Assembly (NCBI GenBank): GCA_015064735.1
Contig: SVRP01000002.1
Span: 18,591-82,590 of the forward strand
Source: Oscillospiraceae bacterium
GTDB taxonomy: Bacteria > Bacillota > Clostridia > Oscillospirales > CAG-272
Direction of reading: 5' to 3'
Length of the DNA: 64,000 nt
Positions 4,170 through 13,289 of the stretch are shown piece after piece. The first letter of the stretch is position 1. Each line of letters opens with the position of its first letter. The position numbers were made by a program, and so were the translations under genes. Below the pieces are notes generated by a model that did no database searches, was not told the origin of the DNA, and was given only the letters and a program-made list of their open reading frames with translations.

Positions 4170-4292
4170 GAAATTCAATGGTCAAAAAAATAAATCCAAG
4201 CAATGACACAATTTTGTTATAACATAACATTTTTTGTTTATTATGCACATTTTGTCTTTTGCTTTTTTGTCAGACTGAACAATCAAAAGTAA

Positions 4293-4321
4293 TTGACAAA
4301 ATGCTAAAAAAATGGTATAAT
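4293..4321 (+). promoter_or_regulatory. Sigma-A-type promoter for the 4375 gene
   Basis: TTGACA (4293-4298), 17-nt spacer, TATAAT (4316-4321). Confidence 0.85.
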
Positions 4322-4374
4322 GCAGTGGGAATAAGTAGTAGTTTTACTTATAACAATTTTTTAAGGAGGAATTT

Positions 4375-5913
4375 ATGAAAAAAACAGTGAAAATTTTAGC
4401 AATGCTCCTGGTTCTCCTCATGATCGTTCCTGTAATCGTATCATGCGGCAAGGATAAGGGCGGCGCAACCGGGAATACAGATGCAAACTCTGATGTTCTC
4501 GGCGGTGATGACAGTTCATCAAGCGAGATTATTACCGACCAGTACGGTCAGCCTGTTGTTGATGACGGTATTAGAGACACCTTTGACGGTGAAACGGTAA
4601 CGGTTCTCATCAGATCGGCTGAGCAGTATATGAGAGAGTGGACATCTGACACTAAAGAACCCGATACTCTCCAGACAGCTATCTTCAAGCGTAACGCAGA
4701 CGTTCAGACTCAGCTTAACGTAAGACTCAATCTTTATAAGAATACCGAATCTGATGAAAAGATGAACGACCTTATTCTGAGAGATTTCAAGAGCGGAGCA
4801 GGTCAGTTCCATATCATAAGCAACTATGCGGCATACTCCGGAACCATGAACAACATCGGAGGATTTATGAACCTTCGTAACGCTCAGCTTTATAATATGA
4901 ATCTTGACCAGCCTTACTGGAATCAGAATTTCATAAGCGAAGCAGAGTGCTACGATAAGCTCTTCCTCGCGGTTGGTGACGTTAACCTTTCCGTTTTCGA
5001 CCGTTGCCACGTTGTATTCTTTAACAAGGCAAAGGCTACCGAGCGTCTCGGTGACTTCGACCAGCTCTACCAGATGGTTCTTGATAAGGAATGGACGTAC
5101 GACGTCCTTTACGAGATGGTTGCTGATATCCACGAGGATAACGGTACCACCGACGAAAGCGATGACTTCTACGGACTCGCATCGATTAGGGGCTCTGAGT
5201 TCTGCGACGGTTTCCTTTATGCGTTCAATGCAAAATTGACACAGAAGGACGGAGATACCGACAAGAGAGTCCTCGTAAGCGATACCAACTACACCAAGAC
5301 TTCGAATGCATTTAGTAAGGTTGCTGAGTTCTGGGCTACCGACGGAACCATAGTAATCGAGGGCTCCGGAGCAAACTATGATTTCTTTACTCAGGGTCAT
5401 GCGCTCTTTGACATCGACGTAGTTTACCACTATGAATCGGGTCTTGAGAAACTCAAGAACATGGAAGACGGATTCGGTGTTCTTCCTATGCCTATGTATG
5501 ATACCGACCAGGGCGAGTATTACACCGGTGTACAGGATGCTCACAACATAATGGGTGTAGCTTACAATACTACCTTTGATTACGGCTTGATAAGTGCTGT
5601 TATGGAGAAGTTTAACTCTCTCAGCTACTCAAGTGTTCGTCCTCTCTACATAGAGAAGATCGTTAAGGGACAGATCCTTGACAAGAACTCTTCCGAGGTA
5701 TTTACTCTTATTATTAACGGCGCTCGTTGGGACTATGCTGATATTTACCGCGGTGCTTGCGGCTCTATCCGTCAAAATCTTTGGAGAGGACCTCTTGGTA
5801 AGCTTCTCAGCACCCCCGGTTCTACCGACTTTTCTCAGGCATATACGGCAAACTCCACCAGCTTGACCGAAAGCCTTGACGAATTCGATAAATTCATAGA
5901 AAAGGCATTCTGA
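4375..5913 (+). CDS. Lipoprotein, extracellular solute-binding-protein-like
   Basis: Lipoprotein signal MKKTVKILAMLLVLLMIVPVIVSCGK, Ser/Asp-rich linker (GGDDSSSSE), then a periplasmic-binding-like sequence. SD AAGGAGG. No ABC permease genes nearby. Confidence 0.75.
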   Translation: MKKTVKILAMLLVLLMIVPVIVSCGKDKGGATGNTDANSDVLGGDDSSSSEIITDQYGQPVVDDGIRDTFDGETVTVLIRSAEQYMREWTSDTKEPDTLQTAIFKRNADVQTQLNVRLNLYKNTESDEKMNDLILRDFKSGAGQFHIISNYAAYSGTMNNIGGFMNLRNAQLYNMNLDQPYWNQNFISEAECYDKLFLAVGDVNLSVFDRCHVVFFNKAKATERLGDFDQLYQMVLDKEWTYDVLYEMVADIHEDNGTTDESDDFYGLASIRGSEFCDGFLYAFNAKLTQKDGDTDKRVLVSDTNYTKTSNAFSKVAEFWATDGTIVIEGSGANYDFFTQGHALFDIDVVYHYESGLEKLKNMEDGFGVLPMPMYDTDQGEYYTGVQDAHNIMGVAYNTTFDYGLISAVMEKFNSLSYSSVRPLYIEKIVKGQILDKNSSEVFTLIINGARWDYADIYRGACGSIRQNLWRGPLGKLLSTPGSTDFSQAYTANSTSLTESLDEFDKFIEKAF

Positions 5914-6080: not shown

Positions 6081-6203
6081 TCAATATAATTATGTAAGTA
6101 TTTTATCAAGCTAATGATACAAATTTGCTATAAAATAACCGTTTTTGGGTATTGTGTATATTTTGACGTTTGCTTTTTTGTTAGACTACACAAATAAAAA
6201 TAA

Positions 6204-6232
6204 TTGACAATTTCCATAAAAAATGATATAAT
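6204..6232 (+). promoter_or_regulatory. Sigma-A-type promoter for the 6286 gene
   Basis: TTGACA (6204-6209), 17-nt spacer, TATAAT (6227-6232). Resembles the 4293 promoter region. Confidence 0.85.
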
Positions 6233-6285
6233 AGAGCGAGAGAAAAGTAGTATTTTTACTCATAATTACTTTTAAGGAGGAATTT

Positions 6286-8115
6286 ATGAAGAAGTCAATT
6301 TTTAAAAGGGTTCTCGTGGCAATGCTTGCAGCTATTATGCTTCTCAGCATAGTTTCCTGTAATAAAAATGCCGCAGAGGAAAACTTGAACACACCCTCGG
6401 GTGATGATACTACGACGACTGCCGATACGTCGGTATATTTTGACATAATAAAAGACGGCAAATGTATTCCCATCCGTTACGGTGCAGGAGCAACCGGCGC
6501 GGAAATTCAGATTGCCAAGGGCGTTGCCGATAAAATAGGCAGAGCAACCGGTGCTGCCGTTGAATTGGATATATCTGTGTCTTACGATGCAAATAAGCTT
6601 GAAATCATTGTCGGACATGGCGCTGCCGCAGATTATCCCGAGGTTGAGCAGGCAATTTCCGAGCTCGGATACGGCGAAGGCCTTGCAAAGATGATCGGCA
6701 ATAAGCTGGTCATAGTAGGTGCCGATACTGAGTCTATCGAGCTCGTAATAGATGAAATGGTCAAGGTATTCATGAATACCAAGGATGAAAACAACAACGT
6801 CAGGGTATCCGATAAATTCATCGTATCTCAGTGCGTTAACGAAATGATCGCCAAGATGCCTTTTTACGACGGATATACTCCTACGGTTGTTGACCGAAAC
6901 GACGGTTGCTATTCCTTTGAATTCAAGACCAACAAGAACGCTTTCGAAAAATACCTTAAGCTCTTGACAGACAGCGGATTTGAGCTTTACGCAAGCAATA
7001 CCATTGATGAAAACGTTTACAATACGTACGTAAACGAGGAAACGGGAATAGTTGCTACGTCGATTTACGCTGAATTTAACGGTCAGTGCAGACTTCTTAT
7101 GGAATGGCTCGACAATACCGAGCTTCCCACAAAGGCTGAGGACAACAAGTATACTCCCGTAGAGGGACTTGAATCCTCGATTACCCAGATAGGACTGTGG
7201 TATGCAAACGGAAATACCCCTCTTATATCTCCTCCTAACGCTGAGGGAAGAGAATACTACAACTACTTCAACGGTATGAGCTATGCTATCCGTCTTGCCG
7301 ACGGAAGCTTCATAGTTGTTGACGGTGGACACGACAATCCTGTTTCGGCGCAGAATCTTTATAATATTCTTAAGGAACAGGCTCCCGACCCCGACAATAT
7401 TGTAATCGCAGCATGGTTTATTTCTCATGACCACAGCGACCATACCGGAATTTTCGGCAATTTCATTGGAAAATACAAGGATGTAGAAATAGAAAGATTT
7501 ATCTACAATTTCCCCGGTGAAGAACTTGGCAACGAGGAAGGGATGGGCAAGAAGCTCAGAAGCCTTATCAAAGGGTTCTACCCCAATGCAAAAATAATTA
7601 AGGCGCATCCCGGACAGGAATTCAATATCCGAAACGCAAAGATAACCATGCTCTACACCATGGACGTATACTTTAAGGATACGCTCAGCGATACCAACAA
7701 CGCAAGCATCGTATGGAAGATGGAGCTTAACGGCAAGACCTTCATGTGTCTTGGCGATTACTCCGAGGGCGGTGATACACTGCTGAATCTTTATTCCGCC
7801 GAAACACTGAAGAGCGATATCGTTCAGGTCGCTCACCACGGTATAAGCGGCATGTCCAATGAAGTGTATGTGAAGATAGCTCCTGAATACGCGCTTTGGC
7901 CTGTTGCAAACTTTGAGCTTGACTGGCCCGAACTCGGAGGACCTATTAAAATAGACGATACGTGGGAGGGCGAGATGAACAAATACATTCTCGATATGCC
8001 CGATGAAAAGGTATTCGTTGCTCGAGATAATGTAAGCATTATCGGTATTAGTAATAGTGGCAATATTACAACAAGCGTATATGAAACTGTAAGCGAATAT
8101 CTTGGTGTAGAATGA
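6286..8115 (+). CDS. Secreted lipoprotein with ComEC-like metallo-beta-lactamase-fold domain
   Basis: Lipoprotein signal (MLLSIVSCNK); metal-binding motif SHDHSDHTG; FMCLGDYSEGGD; ComEC-like VAHHGISG. The N-terminal region resembles an accessory alpha/beta domain (EIIVGHG...ELGYGEGLAKMIGNKLVIVG). Confidence 0.85.
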   Translation: MKKSIFKRVLVAMLAAIMLLSIVSCNKNAAEENLNTPSGDDTTTTADTSVYFDIIKDGKCIPIRYGAGATGAEIQIAKGVADKIGRATGAAVELDISVSYDANKLEIIVGHGAAADYPEVEQAISELGYGEGLAKMIGNKLVIVGADTESIELVIDEMVKVFMNTKDENNNVRVSDKFIVSQCVNEMIAKMPFYDGYTPTVVDRNDGCYSFEFKTNKNAFEKYLKLLTDSGFELYASNTIDENVYNTYVNEETGIVATSIYAEFNGQCRLLMEWLDNTELPTKAEDNKYTPVEGLESSITQIGLWYANGNTPLISPPNAEGREYYNYFNGMSYAIRLADGSFIVVDGGHDNPVSAQNLYNILKEQAPDPDNIVIAAWFISHDHSDHTGIFGNFIGKYKDVEIERFIYNFPGEELGNEEGMGKKLRSLIKGFYPNAKIIKAHPGQEFNIRNAKITMLYTMDVYFKDTLSDTNNASIVWKMELNGKTFMCLGDYSEGGDTLLNLYSAETLKSDIVQVAHHGISGMSNEVYVKIAPEYALWPVANFELDWPELGGPIKIDDTWEGEMNKYILDMPDEKVFVARDNVSIIGISNSGNITTSVYETVSEYLGVE

Positions 8116-8147: not shown

Positions 8148-11100
8148 ATGAAAAGAATTTTATCATTGTTTCTTGCAGTGTTAATGGTAATGGCAATCGC
8201 AGTAACGGCGATACCTACAGCCTTCGCAGCAGGAAACACCACAGAAGGTGCTGACGATGCTTATTTCAAAATAGGCGATCAGTACTACACCACACTTAAG
8301 GCTGCCCTTACGGACGCAAAGGACGGCGACACTATCGAGATGCTTAAGAACTTCGATGACAGCACTACGGCAAATCTCGGTACGTATTCCAAAAACCTTA
8401 CCATTAACGGTAACGGATTTACTTACACTGCGAAGAAGAATACAAACGCGTATTGGTTCTACATCAGCGGTGGAAAGACTCTTACTATCAATAATCTTAA
8501 TCTGATAGCACAGAGTGGTGTAGGAATAAACGGAGCAGGTGGAACTATCAACCTCAATGACTGTAACTTCCTTACCACCCACAGAATGGCGATAAGAACC
8601 AGCGGCGCTAAGTACGCTGAGTTCAATCTTAACAACACCGTTCTTGAGATCAACAGCGATACCAACGCAAACGGCGCTCAGGCTGAGCCTCTCGTTTACC
8701 TTGACGGAACCGATTACAACATCCTTAACCTTACCGGTACCTCTAAGCTCATTAGAAGCACCAAGACCACCGGCAACCGTGGTAACTGCTCGATAATCAA
8801 CGTTGTAGGCGGCGCCGGATACGTCGAGATCAATCTTGGCTCTGAGGCTGAAATCGTAATGAATCAGGCAACCGGAGCAACCAACGCACCTATAGGTATT
8901 CACCACAACGCAGCCAACGTAGTTGCGCTCAATCTTGAGAACGGCTCTACCTTCAGAGTTAATTCCAAGATACAGACCGCGCCTGTTTTCCTTAGCGTGG
9001 AAAACAACGGAAAGGGCTATGCTGTAAACGATAAGGGTTGTAACTGGCTCGTTTCGGACGAATCGGCAGCTCCCACTACTACGTACCTGTCCGACCTCAC
9101 CACTTTTGAGGAGCTTGCTACTTCTCCTGAGACAGGTTATACCGCTTACACTACCGTAATTCCCGAAGCAAACAATTCCGACGATATTATCCGCTACTTT
9201 AACGGTACTTCTGTACTGTATACTTATGACCTTAAGGTTGCTATGAGCGGAGCAGTGAACGGCTCCTCTATTATCTTCCTCGGCGACGTTACCCAGAAGT
9301 CTGAAAACGGTATGTGCAGTACTTCCTCAAAGGCTGTTTCTTTCATAGGAAACGGATACACCCTTACGCTTAACGACAACACCGCGGGCGGAACCTTCCC
9401 CTTCCAGACGACAAAGAATACCACTATCGCGAACTTTGAAAAGATAGCTACAACTACCGGTGGACTTCAGGTACATAATGGAACTACCGTAGTAACCAAC
9501 ACCGTGATTGAATCGGGTAACAGAGCGGGCGCTAAGATGTCCGGTGGCGCAGGAACAAACGCTCACCTGATCGTTAAGGATGCTGAAATATGCACCAACG
9601 CAAGCGCGCCTAACACCGAGGCTGTAGTTATATTTGAAAATGCCGGAACATATACGCTTACTCTCAGAGAAGGCGCAGAGCTTCGCAGAAACAACCCCAG
9701 CAAAGGCAACGTTGAAAGTCAGGCATCTGTTCTCTATGCTGCAAATGCGGCCGGAAACTATACCATAAATATGGAGAGCGGCTCCAAGATGGCTACCGCG
9801 CCTATGTCCGGTAATGCGGCATGCTCTGTTATAGCGTTTAACAACACTGCGGGTAAGATGACAATAAACATGGAGGAGGGAGCATATCTCGTTTCCGAAT
9901 CCTCTGTACTTACCACTCTTCATTTCGTATATGCCAATGTTGGAGCAAAGATAAAGCTCAATGCTCCCGCAGACGCGTTCCTCGCAACTTCTGCAACAAC
10001 AACCGTACCGAACTATAACGAGGGTGCTGAGTACGGTGGATACACCGGCACGTTTGCAAAGAAAGAAACCTCTGACGTACCCGGTTACGACCAGTACGTT
10101 CTTACAAGAGGTAAGGCAAGCGCGAATAAGTTTAAGGTTGTAAACGCGTTCGGTGATACCGTATACGTTGATACAATGGCAAAGGTATTTGCGTTCTCCA
10201 CTGCAACCGTAACTATGCTTGAGGACGTGAACGAGAGCGGAAGCGGATATACCGTTGCTGCAGGCAAAAATATAACTCTTGACCTTAACGGTAAGAAGTA
10301 TACCAATACCGCTTCGAGCTATGTTATTGGTTCTATGAAGGGTAACCTTACCATTAAGAACGGTACCTTCAGTGTTAAGAGAGGTATTGTAGTTCAGGCA
10401 GGCGGCGTTCTTAACTTCGACGGCGCAACTGCATCCTCCACAGAAAGACCTCTTATTAAGCTCAACGGAGCAGGAACCACCACTGCTAATATCAACAACT
10501 CTAACCTTAGCATAAATGCAAACGGCGAGAACCTTATTCTTATAGAGCAAGGAACCGACGGCTTCCTTAACGTAACCGGCAACTCTGTTCTATCTCATGT
10601 TGGCGCGGCTGCAGGTCGTCCTAATTGTTCGGTAATCACCGTTCAGCAGAATAATGTTACAGACGCGGACGTTGACGCGACCATCACAATCGGAGCGGGC
10701 GCAAAGCTTCACTCCGCATACGCTTTGGACAACAGTAACAAGACCAACGCGGGAGCTTGTATTCTTGATATGACCTACGGTAAGATTGATATAATTCTTG
10801 AAAAGGATTCTATCCTTGCAATCGACCGTAAGTTTGCGGCAGAGACGTACTTCATCTGGGAATCCAGAACTAGCGGTTCTTCTACTAACGCAGATACCGG
10901 TGTTACAACCACCAAGAACGGTAAGACGACTATTACCGACAAGGGAGCTATTTACTCCGCAAATGCAACCGCATTGGCTAACGGTGTACATTTCCCCGCA
11001 ATCGCAAAGAGCGGTGAAACCCAGATGGGCTTCCTTGGCAGCGACGGTAAGTTTTATCACACAGGTAAGAACGTTGCTACAGCAGAGGAAACCGTAACCT

Positions 11101-13289
11101 TCTCGCCCATATACTATGGCACAGACGACTTTGGATTGGTATACGGTGCATCACTCCGTACGATCAAGAACGAGATTGGAATACGTTTTTCCGGATATTT
11201 TTCGGATTTACTTAAGAATACTTTAGGAAACAACGTTACGTTTGGAATGGCAATAGCTCCCGGAAAAACTACAGCCGATGACCCTGTTGCAAATACCTCG
11301 AATCTCTTCGTAAAGAGTACTAAAAATCAAACAAAACGTACCATTGCAGGAAAAACATACGAAAATGTATATCATGTAGCAGTAATTTATCCCTATAATT
11401 TTGAGACCCTAAACGAGGCTACAAAGACTAATGCATATTTTCTTTCCCTTGCAACCCGTGCGTATTTTGAGATAACCTATGCTGACGGATCAACTGTAAA
11501 GTATTACACAACGCTTACATCGGATAATATTCGTTGTATGGCACAGATCGCTCAGAATCTCGATGACACAGGAGAAACTAACGACGTAATAACAGACATT
11601 GTAAATACAATCCAAACGACAAACGTTGAAAAGTATTATAACTATTTAATCAAAAACGGCACCGGTGTGGGGGTTGTATATCCTTCAGGTGCATCTGATG
11701 AAGTAATGGCTGCCGCAAACAAGATTGCTGCGAAGCTTGGTGTAACTGCAAAGGTTGCAGGTACATACAATGCAAACACAGTTGAGATAGTGGTGGGCAA
11801 TGTAAACTATACTGAGGTTACGTCTCTTACTTCGGCACTCGGATATTTTGAGGGTGCGGTTAAAGTATCGGGTAAGAAGGTAGTCGTTGCCGGATATGAT
11901 GATACATGTATTGCTCTTGCTGCAGATAAGCTCATTGCAAACATTTCTAAGAAGACTCTTTACAATGGAGACGTAATTATAAGCAAGACCTACGAAGAGC
12001 ATGTTTCTTCAAATACAACGGTATCCGAGCTTCCCAGAATTTCCGGATATACTCTTGATATGGTAGATACCGCAGACAACTGTTATATGCTTGAGCTTGG
12101 AACTTCATCTTCTGCTACAAGTGGAAAGTTCAGTACGTTCAAAATGGCTCTTGAAAATGACGGATATAGCCTTTACGCGTATAAGACTATAGAAAAGAAC
12201 AGTTACTACACCTACACTAACGGTAAGGTTATTGTAACCTTGTTGTCCTTTACTCCTTCATCAAGTACTCAGTATACACACAGGCTTCTTGTTGAACCTT
12301 ATGAAAAGGGAAAGCTTCCTACTAAGGTTGCGGACAATAAGTATACTCCCATAAGCGGACTTGAATCTACTATAACTCAGGTAGGTTTGTGGTATGCAAG
12401 TCCCAGCAAGCCCCTTATAGATCCTCCCAATAGTGAAGGAAGAGAATTCTACAACTACTTTAACGGAATGAGCTATGTGATTCGTCTTGCTGATGGAAGC
12501 TTTATTGTTGTGGACGGTGGACACAATAACCCCGTTTCTATACAGAATCTTTACGATATTCTTAAGAAACAGGCACCCAATCCTGACAATATTGTGGTAG
12601 CAGCATGGTTCTTATCTCATAATCATGATGACCATATCGGATTTTTCTCCGGATTTGCAAGTAAGTTTAATGATATTACCGTTGAAAGATTTGTCTATAA
12701 TTTCCCTGCGGGATCAGCAAGTAAAAATTTCACCGACAATGTAATCAAGTACTATCCCGAAGCATCTATAATCAAGGCGCACCCCGGACAGGAATTCAAT
12801 ATCCGAAACGCAAAGATAACTATGCTCTATACAGCAGATGTGTATACCAAAGAAACGATGACAGATACGAATAACGCGTCTATTGTATGGAAGATGGAGC
12901 TTAACGGTAAGACCTTTATGTGTCTTGGTGATTACTCTGAAAGCGGTGATACTTTGATGAAACTTTATACTGCAACTACATTGAAGAGCGATATCGTACA
13001 GGTTGCTCACCACGGTATAAGCGGTATGTCAAATGACGTGTATGTGAAGATAGCTCCCGAATACGCATTCTGGCCGGTAGCTAACTTCCAACTTGATTGG
13101 AACGGTATTGGCGGAAATAAACCCATCGACCTTACTCAGGGTTCAAAGTATACCATGAACAAATACATTCTTGATATGCCCGATGAAAAGGTATTTGTTG
13201 CACGTGATGATGTAGCCGTAATGACTATCAGCGGTGGAAAAGTAACCACTAATGTCTACGATACTGTTTCTGCGTACGTTAATAATTAA
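8148..13289 (+). CDS. Large secreted protein: repetitive beta-helix-like modules, a GASLR...GIRF domain, an accessory alpha/beta domain and a C-terminal ComEC-like MBL domain
   Basis: Signal peptide MKRILSLFLAVLMVMAIAVTAIPTAFA. Three repeated LTINGNG/ITLDLNGK-type modules. C-terminal SHNHDDHIG, CLGDYSESGD and VAHHGISG. The last ~555 aa are paralogous to the 6286 product. Confidence 0.85.
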   Translation: MKRILSLFLAVLMVMAIAVTAIPTAFAAGNTTEGADDAYFKIGDQYYTTLKAALTDAKDGDTIEMLKNFDDSTTANLGTYSKNLTINGNGFTYTAKKNTNAYWFYISGGKTLTINNLNLIAQSGVGINGAGGTINLNDCNFLTTHRMAIRTSGAKYAEFNLNNTVLEINSDTNANGAQAEPLVYLDGTDYNILNLTGTSKLIRSTKTTGNRGNCSIINVVGGAGYVEINLGSEAEIVMNQATGATNAPIGIHHNAANVVALNLENGSTFRVNSKIQTAPVFLSVENNGKGYAVNDKGCNWLVSDESAAPTTTYLSDLTTFEELATSPETGYTAYTTVIPEANNSDDIIRYFNGTSVLYTYDLKVAMSGAVNGSSIIFLGDVTQKSENGMCSTSSKAVSFIGNGYTLTLNDNTAGGTFPFQTTKNTTIANFEKIATTTGGLQVHNGTTVVTNTVIESGNRAGAKMSGGAGTNAHLIVKDAEICTNASAPNTEAVVIFENAGTYTLTLREGAELRRNNPSKGNVESQASVLYAANAAGNYTINMESGSKMATAPMSGNAACSVIAFNNTAGKMTINMEEGAYLVSESSVLTTLHFVYANVGAKIKLNAPADAFLATSATTTVPNYNEGAEYGGYTGTFAKKETSDVPGYDQYVLTRGKASANKFKVVNAFGDTVYVDTMAKVFAFSTATVTMLEDVNESGSGYTVAAGKNITLDLNGKKYTNTASSYVIGSMKGNLTIKNGTFSVKRGIVVQAGGVLNFDGATASSTERPLIKLNGAGTTTANINNSNLSINANGENLILIEQGTDGFLNVTGNSVLSHVGAAAGRPNCSVITVQQNNVTDADVDATITIGAGAKLHSAYALDNSNKTNAGACILDMTYGKIDIILEKDSILAIDRKFAAETYFIWESRTSGSSTNADTGVTTTKNGKTTITDKGAIYSANATALANGVHFPAIAKSGETQMGFLGSDGKFYHTGKNVATAEETVTFSPIYYGTDDFGLVYGASLRTIKNEIGIRFSGYFSDLLKNTLGNNVTFGMAIAPGKTTADDPVANTSNLFVKSTKNQTKRTIAGKTYENVYHVAVIYPYNFETLNEATKTNAYFLSLATRAYFEITYADGSTVKYYTTLTSDNIRCMAQIAQNLDDTGETNDVITDIVNTIQTTNVEKYYNYLIKNGTGVGVVYPSGASDEVMAAANKIAAKLGVTAKVAGTYNANTVEIVVGNVNYTEVTSLTSALGYFEGAVKVSGKKVVVAGYDDTCIALAADKLIANISKKTLYNGDVIISKTYEEHVSSNTTVSELPRISGYTLDMVDTADNCYMLELGTSSSATSGKFSTFKMALENDGYSLYAYKTIEKNSYYTYTNGKVIVTLLSFTPSSSTQYTHRLLVEPYEKGKLPTKVADNKYTPISGLESTITQVGLWYASPSKPLIDPPNSEGREFYNYFNGMSYVIRLADGSFIVVDGGHNNPVSIQNLYDILKKQAPNPDNIVVAAWFLSHNHDDHIGFFSGFASKFNDITVERFVYNFPAGSASKNFTDNVIKYYPEASIIKAHPGQEFNIRNAKITMLYTADVYTKETMTDTNNASIVWKMELNGKTFMCLGDYSESGDTLMKLYTATTLKSDIVQVAHHGISGMSNDVYVKIAPEYAFWPVANFQLDWNGIGGNKPIDLTQGSKYTMNKYILDMPDEKVFVARDDVAVMTISGGKVTTNVYDTVSAYVNN

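Follow-up and report, generated by a model that had tools for sequence, protein, structure and literature searches.

The locus described here raises the question of what reaction is catalyzed by a giant exported protein in which a metallo-beta-lactamase (MBL) domain stands behind a long repetitive N terminus, and whether such a protein is a single oddity. The window (the whole stretch of DNA analyzed, 64,000 nucleotides) encodes this secreted fusion protein, P0001, at 8148..13289; this and the other window features given below lie on the + strand. The open reading frame (ORF) has an ATG start, 1,713 codons, and no internal stops, and TTAAGGAG, which is Shine-Dalgarno-like, is located immediately 5' of the ATG.

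P0001 begins with a Sec signal peptide of the signal peptidase I type without a lipobox (8148..8228), read directly in the sequence; the leader is MKRILSLFLAVLMVMAIAVTAIPTAFA/A, with cleavage, as judged by eye, after TAFA. Three modules of about 310 amino acids follow (residues 36 to 985): module 1 (8253..9182, residues 36 to 345), module 2 (9183..10112, residues 346 to 655), and module 3 (10113..11102, residues 656 to 985). These modules are mutually homologous (z = 13.6, 13.0, and 5.5; Smith-Waterman alignment, 200 shuffles). In the model, the modules were strand-rich with weak beta-helix matches, and a fold search with the N-terminal model (pLDDT 68, pTM 0.45) gave a single match with an E value of <0.001, to Ag43 (probability, 0.35), with PL6 lyases just above the threshold. 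These results are suggestive of a beta-helix fold, which the modules likely adopt. An earlier note on this DNA was right that the modules are repetitive, but the fold model behind the term beta-helix-like is weak.

The GASLR domain (11136..11564, residues 997 to 1139), detected with its own hidden Markov model (HMM; 20 proteins), had no Pfam match and was modeled by AlphaFold2 at a pLDDT of <50. It is followed by the alpha/beta adaptor domain GHN (11673..11948, residues 1176 to 1267), the small alpha/beta domain SAB (12030..12239, residues 1295 to 1364), after which an MBL domain nearly always comes next, and the MBL domain itself (12315..13283, residues 1390 to 1712), which was identified with Pfam, AlphaFold2, and Foldseek. 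GHN, SAB, and MBL were all modeled at high confidence, and the structure prediction that the earlier note had proposed recovered the MBL fold at a pLDDT of >90. The signal peptide, the three repetitive modules, the GASLR domain, and the C-terminal MBL that it had recognized are all present in an intact ORF; the region that it had taken for one alpha/beta accessory domain is alpha/beta but consists of two domains, GHN and SAB. The claim of surface exposure fared well as far as export is concerned, but the leader is of the signal peptidase I type without a recognizable anchor, whereas the product of the neighboring gene, P0002, is a lipoprotein. No lipobox, LPXTG/sortase signal, or SLH was seen in reading the P0001 sequence. 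P0001 may be anchored at the surface.

Each half of P0001 resembles a neighboring gene product. P0002 (6286..8115, 609 amino acids), a GHN-SAB-MBL lipoprotein, is 54% identical over 561 columns to the C-terminal third, and P0005 (13733..16231, 832 amino acids), which has beta-helix and GASLR regions without an MBL, shares 33% identity with the N-terminal two thirds. Therefore, P0001 is a natural fusion of its neighbors' types, and the GC content drops near 11 kb (from ∼0.47 to ∼0.41), consistent with two gene types having been joined. The same GC change could indicate that the ORF is chimeric through misassembly or that an unselected fusion happened once, and assembly of this region is difficult, as several contigs of the source metagenome-assembled genome (MAG) end within related beta-helix/GASLR genes. 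However, a paralogue that the source genome encodes on a different contig (C14, L022) aligns over P0001 residues 728 to 1713 with 49% identity and carries the same junction, further GASLR-MBL fusions are found in G001, G013, and L150, and the P0001 frame is open with a good ribosome site. Because the paralogue has the junction in common with P0001 and independent fusions are present in other genomes, an assembly artifact is excluded for practical purposes and was rejected, and the probability that the ORF is a chimera or a one-off is negligible. The check for a chimera at ∼11.1 kb that the earlier note had called for thus found none, and the suggested search for the same domain order showed that similar fusions recur in other genomes. 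Within the source genome (G000), contigs C14 and C30 end, and C15 and C21 start, inside beta-helix/GASLR genes; the MAG assembly is probably interrupted by the repeats of this family.

In a tree of 150 MBL domains, constructed with a quick method, the MBL of P0001 groups with those of P0002 and of a near-copy of P0002 on contig C24 (SH-aLRT, 99), which are its nearest relatives. The seven GASLR-MBL fusions fall in 7 separate places on this tree, kept apart by starred branches, and the fusion arose repeatedly. For the fusions in the window and on C14, one gain plus one loss instead of two gains is possible.

The MBL domain has the alpha-beta/beta-alpha fold of its superfamily and the metal ligands of that superfamily (HxHxDH with an Asp and a His), as indicated by Pfam, the model, Foldseek, and conserved residues. 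Pfam Lactamase_B matched the whole protein at 9e-5 and the domain alone at 8e-6, both above the curated cutoff. The HxHxDH motif (12618..12635) comprises H1491, H1493, D1495, and H1496, and is followed by N1575 (12870..12872), D1595, a putative bridging Asp in a GD motif (12930..12932), and H1621-H1622 in an HHG motif (13008..13013). D1456, H1491, D1495, H1496, N1575, D1595, H1621, H1622, and G1623 are invariant in 73 relatives; H1493 is conserved in 72 of the 73 and H1545 in 62. With Pfam above the cutoff and ligands conserved in 72 to 73 of 73 relatives, the earlier identification of a C-terminal MBL with a complete metal motif was correct, and P0001 is an exported, probably active metallo-hydrolase whose MBL is of the type found in ComEC and Pce. 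The best solved relatives by profile were the ComEC MBL (7e-10) and Pce (2e-9). Foldseek matched the ComEC MBL 9ic4 (E = 1e-13), Pce 2bib (E = 1.4e-11), and also the arylsulfatase 8gyg in a whole-model search in which the MBL dominated the matches.

The C-terminal MBL of ComEC/Rec2 (PDB 9ic4 and 9vc6) is the closest fold (TM of 0.77 to target) and has the NxxS, GD, and HHG blocks in common with P0001. The phosphodiesterase and nuclease activities of the ComEC MBL depend on metal, namely, Mn; its motif II is HxDxDH, its motif III contains an Asn, and the serine after its HHG is used for substrate (PMC8579336, PMC12455585). P0001 might thus be an extracellular ComEC-type nuclease that degrades environmental DNA or RNA for nutrition, biofilm release, or defense, as might also be expected from the best NCBIfam match (TIGR00361, ComEC/Rec2; partial, 1.3e-6), from weak matches of the defense MBL profiles LmuA, Avs1a, and RTasMBL, and from the many GHN partners that are EEP domains, a fold that includes nucleases. 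However, motif II is HxHxDH in 72 of 73 relatives rather than the HxDxDH of ComEC (PMC12455585), the residue after HHG is mostly Y, I, M, or W, so that the ComEC-type serine is absent, and the MBL domains have an acidic median pI of 5.15 (6 of 180 above 7.5), in contrast to the strong positive charge of the ComEC domain model (PMC5031224). The TIGR00361 score was 26.8 bits versus the 190 needed, and the HHGS block and the membrane channel with an OB fold of ComEC are absent; in the Pfam scan, P0001 lacked the competence transmembrane domain PF03772 and gave Lactamase_B only. Membership in ComEC was rejected on the basis of the motif, the missing domains, and a separate ComEC in the genome, and a ComEC-type nuclease seems unlikely. 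The source genome's own ComEC (G000:C26:215858-216673, L222) has a C-terminal region without MBL metal motifs, even though many secreted MBLs resembling those of ComEC and Pce are encoded in the same genome. A role in antiphage defense was also rejected, since the defense profiles gave short partial MBL matches only; P0001 is flanked by genes for SBP, MBL, and beta-helix proteins and, beyond these, by purine genes rather than by defense partner genes. A scan of viral contigs with P0001 found no relative that would point to a phage origin.

The closest known system is Pce/CbpE, the teichoic-acid phosphorylcholine esterase of Streptococcus pneumoniae (PDB 1wra, 2bib, and 12qj), which is likewise an exported modular MBL with a repeat module that directs the enzyme to the surface. 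Pce carries HxHxDH (PMC5031224), and its metal ligands D203 and H229 (PMC2916828) correspond to D1595 and H1622. The spacing of P0001 (H1545-30-N1575-20-D1595-26-H1621) agrees within one residue with that of Pce (H153-30-N183-20-D203-25-H228), and H153 as the Pce third-motif histidine, the putative equivalent of H1545, fits the spacing. The P0001 family also has the Asn at the position that ComEC and Pce have in common. However, the two MBLs are only ∼12% identical, and the MBL of Pce is N-terminal with choline-binding repeats at the C terminus, whereas that of P0001 is C-terminal behind the beta-helix, GASLR, GHN, and SAB regions. No choline-binding repeats were found in the Pfam scan of P0001. 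The Pce-like ligands and spacing, together with the missing HHGS serine, favor a phosphodiesterase or phosphorylcholine-esterase-like activity over a ComEC nuclease. Thus, of the activities listed in the earlier note, a metallo-hydrolase of the phosphodiesterase/phosphorylcholine esterase kind is favored, but a nuclease of the ComEC type does not fit the ligands and spacing, and the term ComEC-like is apt for the fold but not for the active site.

GHN domains provide further information on the likely chemistry. On other lipoproteins of these genomes they accompany EEP (∼15), alkaline phosphatase (2), calcineurin-like phosphoesterase (1), BNR (2), GDSL (1), GH43 (1), and DUF6528 (1) domains, with ∼10 lacking a clear partner. 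Phosphoesterases of unrelated folds dominate these partners, so the MBL is implicated in such chemistry by association; GHN also carries lipase, GH43, and BNR domains, so it is not a marker of phosphoesterases alone. GHN weakly resembles the N-terminal domains GH20b, GH67N, and NAGLU_N of glycosidases (best E values between 3e-3 and 3e-2, for a few of the 32 members; GH20b at 3e-4 in GHN protein L197), with all matches below the curated cutoff, but it is not attached to a GH20 or GH67 barrel. A GHN profile search of the PDB gave no convincing match. One GHN protein (L135 4272-7577) has alkaline phosphatase, dockerin, and LRR_5 domains, an arrangement in which cellulosome-like attachment of the adaptor is possible.

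It was also considered that the MBL might act on glycans or antibiotics by cleaving a bond that involves no phosphate (sulfate ester, lactone, acyl ester, or beta-lactam), because MBL folds are catalytically diverse, the arylsulfatase 8gyg is among the Foldseek matches, GHN is joined to a GDSL esterase and GH43 as well, and glycoside hydrolases occur among some MBL neighbors. However, the nearest profiles and folds are phosphodiesterases, most identified non-MBL GHN partners are phosphoesterases, and beta-lactamase models matched weakly (bla_class_B_core, 5e-4, 20 bits versus a cutoff of 100); this activity is improbable. The single LicD-type gene of the source genome allows for phosphodiester-linked decorations without fixing the substrate.

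The genes around P0001 form a neighborhood that recurs elsewhere. P0003 (4375..5913, 512 amino acids), a lipoprotein recognized with its own HMM and by adjacency, had no Pfam match; on reading its sequence, it resembles an extracellular solute-binding protein (SBP). P0004 (13365..13646, 93 amino acids) is a low-complexity lipoprotein. Sigma70-type promoters (TTGACA-17-TATAAT) precede P0003 (4293..4321, 12/12 match) and P0002 (6204..6232, perfect hexamers), and the two genes share a 188-bp leader that is 79% identical (window 4250-4386 and 6160-6296), suggesting coregulation or a duplicated strong promoter. Terminator-like hairpins follow P0003 (6034..6069) and P0005 (16592..16630); no strong + strand terminator was predicted between 8115 and 16592, so P0002, P0001, P0004, and P0005 may be cotranscribed. 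The P0002 gene and its leader have a second copy with 96% identity over 1.9 kb (G000:C24, L021 9655-11574), which stands alone between unrelated genes and appears to be a recent transposition or duplication. The gene that follows the fusion paralogue on C14 encodes a calcineurin-like phosphoesterase.

SBP-like lipoproteins of one sequence family adjoin MBL genes at many loci, with distances of 13 to 100 bp in several; the SBP-MBL-GASLR order recurs in L090, and the same three genes are adjacent in L092. In three related genomes, with fused genes taken as adjacent, 5/12, 4/14, and 3/5 GASLR genes were within 3 kb of MBL genes, more than expected from random placement (binomial P = 2e-4, 3e-3, and 2e-3). 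In G009, only 1 of 14 GASLR genes was within 1 kb of an MBL gene. The immediate MBL neighbors in a Pfam tally were diverse, including a few glycoside hydrolases and transporter parts, with no single partner.

P0001 does not stand alone. The source genome (2.1 Mb, 95% complete) has ∼18 MBLs of the P0001 family, and P0001 is only one of several independent fusions; the related genomes G009 and G018 have ∼20 and ∼23 such MBLs. These numbers point to an undescribed, greatly enlarged outer-surface hydrolase family rather than a single oddity. With up to 11 candidates scored per genome, 49 of 117 genomes from the order had a match at 1e-15, mostly one each and otherwise up to six, a maximum that leaves out the source genome. 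The relatives with names belong to MAGs of Clostridia, Oscillospiraceae, and Lachnospiraceae, and the guts of ruminants, deer, horses, and rabbits are the source of many of them. A 1,507-amino-acid ORF in G013:C180 (L069 3471-7994) has two complete GHN-GHN-SAB-MBL units in tandem, and two giant secreted proteins of 1,859 and 1,628 amino acids (L033 4809-10388 and L034 1302-6188; G000:C31) have GASLR without an MBL. The earlier note named no described system with this architecture, and a search of nonsubscription literature likewise found no described family that has it. The nearest described counterparts of the N terminus are the putative adhesive beta-helix proteins of Pectate_lyase_5 (PF20585), which P0005, homologous to the N terminus of P0001, matched at 2.9e-4, but its 21.4 bits are below the cutoff of 24.3, P0001 itself had no match to this model in the Pfam scan, and P0001 is fused to an enzyme. 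A binding role for the stalk may be proposed from this subthreshold match.

These results suggest that P0001 is probably an exported, adhesin-targeted dinuclear metallo-phosphodiesterase with an SBP-type lipoprotein partner. The beta-helix modules and the GASLR domain would tether the enzyme to a polymer or surface. GHN, whose relatives are located ahead of the catalytic barrels of carbohydrate-active enzymes, would present the substrate. A two-metal site of H1491, H1493, D1495, H1496, D1595, and H1622, with N1575 and/or H1545, would activate water and cut a phosphodiester in the manner of Pce. Membrane-anchored MBL lipoproteins such as P0002 would do the same at the cell surface, with P0001 complementing its paralogues, and the co-encoded SBP-type lipoprotein may catch the released product. 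Candidate polymers are a teichoic-acid-like or other phosphodiester-decorated glycan, a phospholipid headgroup, a nucleotide, or phytate. The variation at H1545, and the hydrolysis of sulfates or lactones by MBLs of similar fold such as 8gyg, count against a phosphodiesterase.

On a tentative view, P0001 belongs to an undescribed, lineage-expanded, outer-surface phosphoester-harvesting system of herbivore-gut Clostridia. In this system, metallo-phosphoesterases of unrelated folds (MBL, EEP, alkaline phosphatase, and calcineurin-like) would be carried by lipoproteins on one GH20b-like adaptor; their genes would be grouped with those of a dedicated SBP-type lipoprotein and of beta-helix/GASLR surface proteins, to which the enzymes have been fused more than once. 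What is new beyond a single protein is the family as a whole, its recurring fusions, and the adaptor that the enzymes have in common; the earlier interpretation was right in outline but too narrow. Because ComEC is the best NCBIfam match, albeit far below the cutoff, many such proteins are likely named automatically as ComEC-like or plain MBL, and gut genomes may thus conceal a large family of extracellular enzymes. A specific, testable prediction on chemistry and substrate capture follows from the common adaptor, the recurrent fusions, and the paired SBP. That ∼2-Mb genomes devote about 20 genes to one hydrolase family implies that the herbivore hindgut contains an abundant, unnamed resource or surface decoration, a phosphoester or something similar, and, if the system is as proposed, herbivore-gut Clostridia would have a swappable enzyme set for phosphate-decorated polymers.
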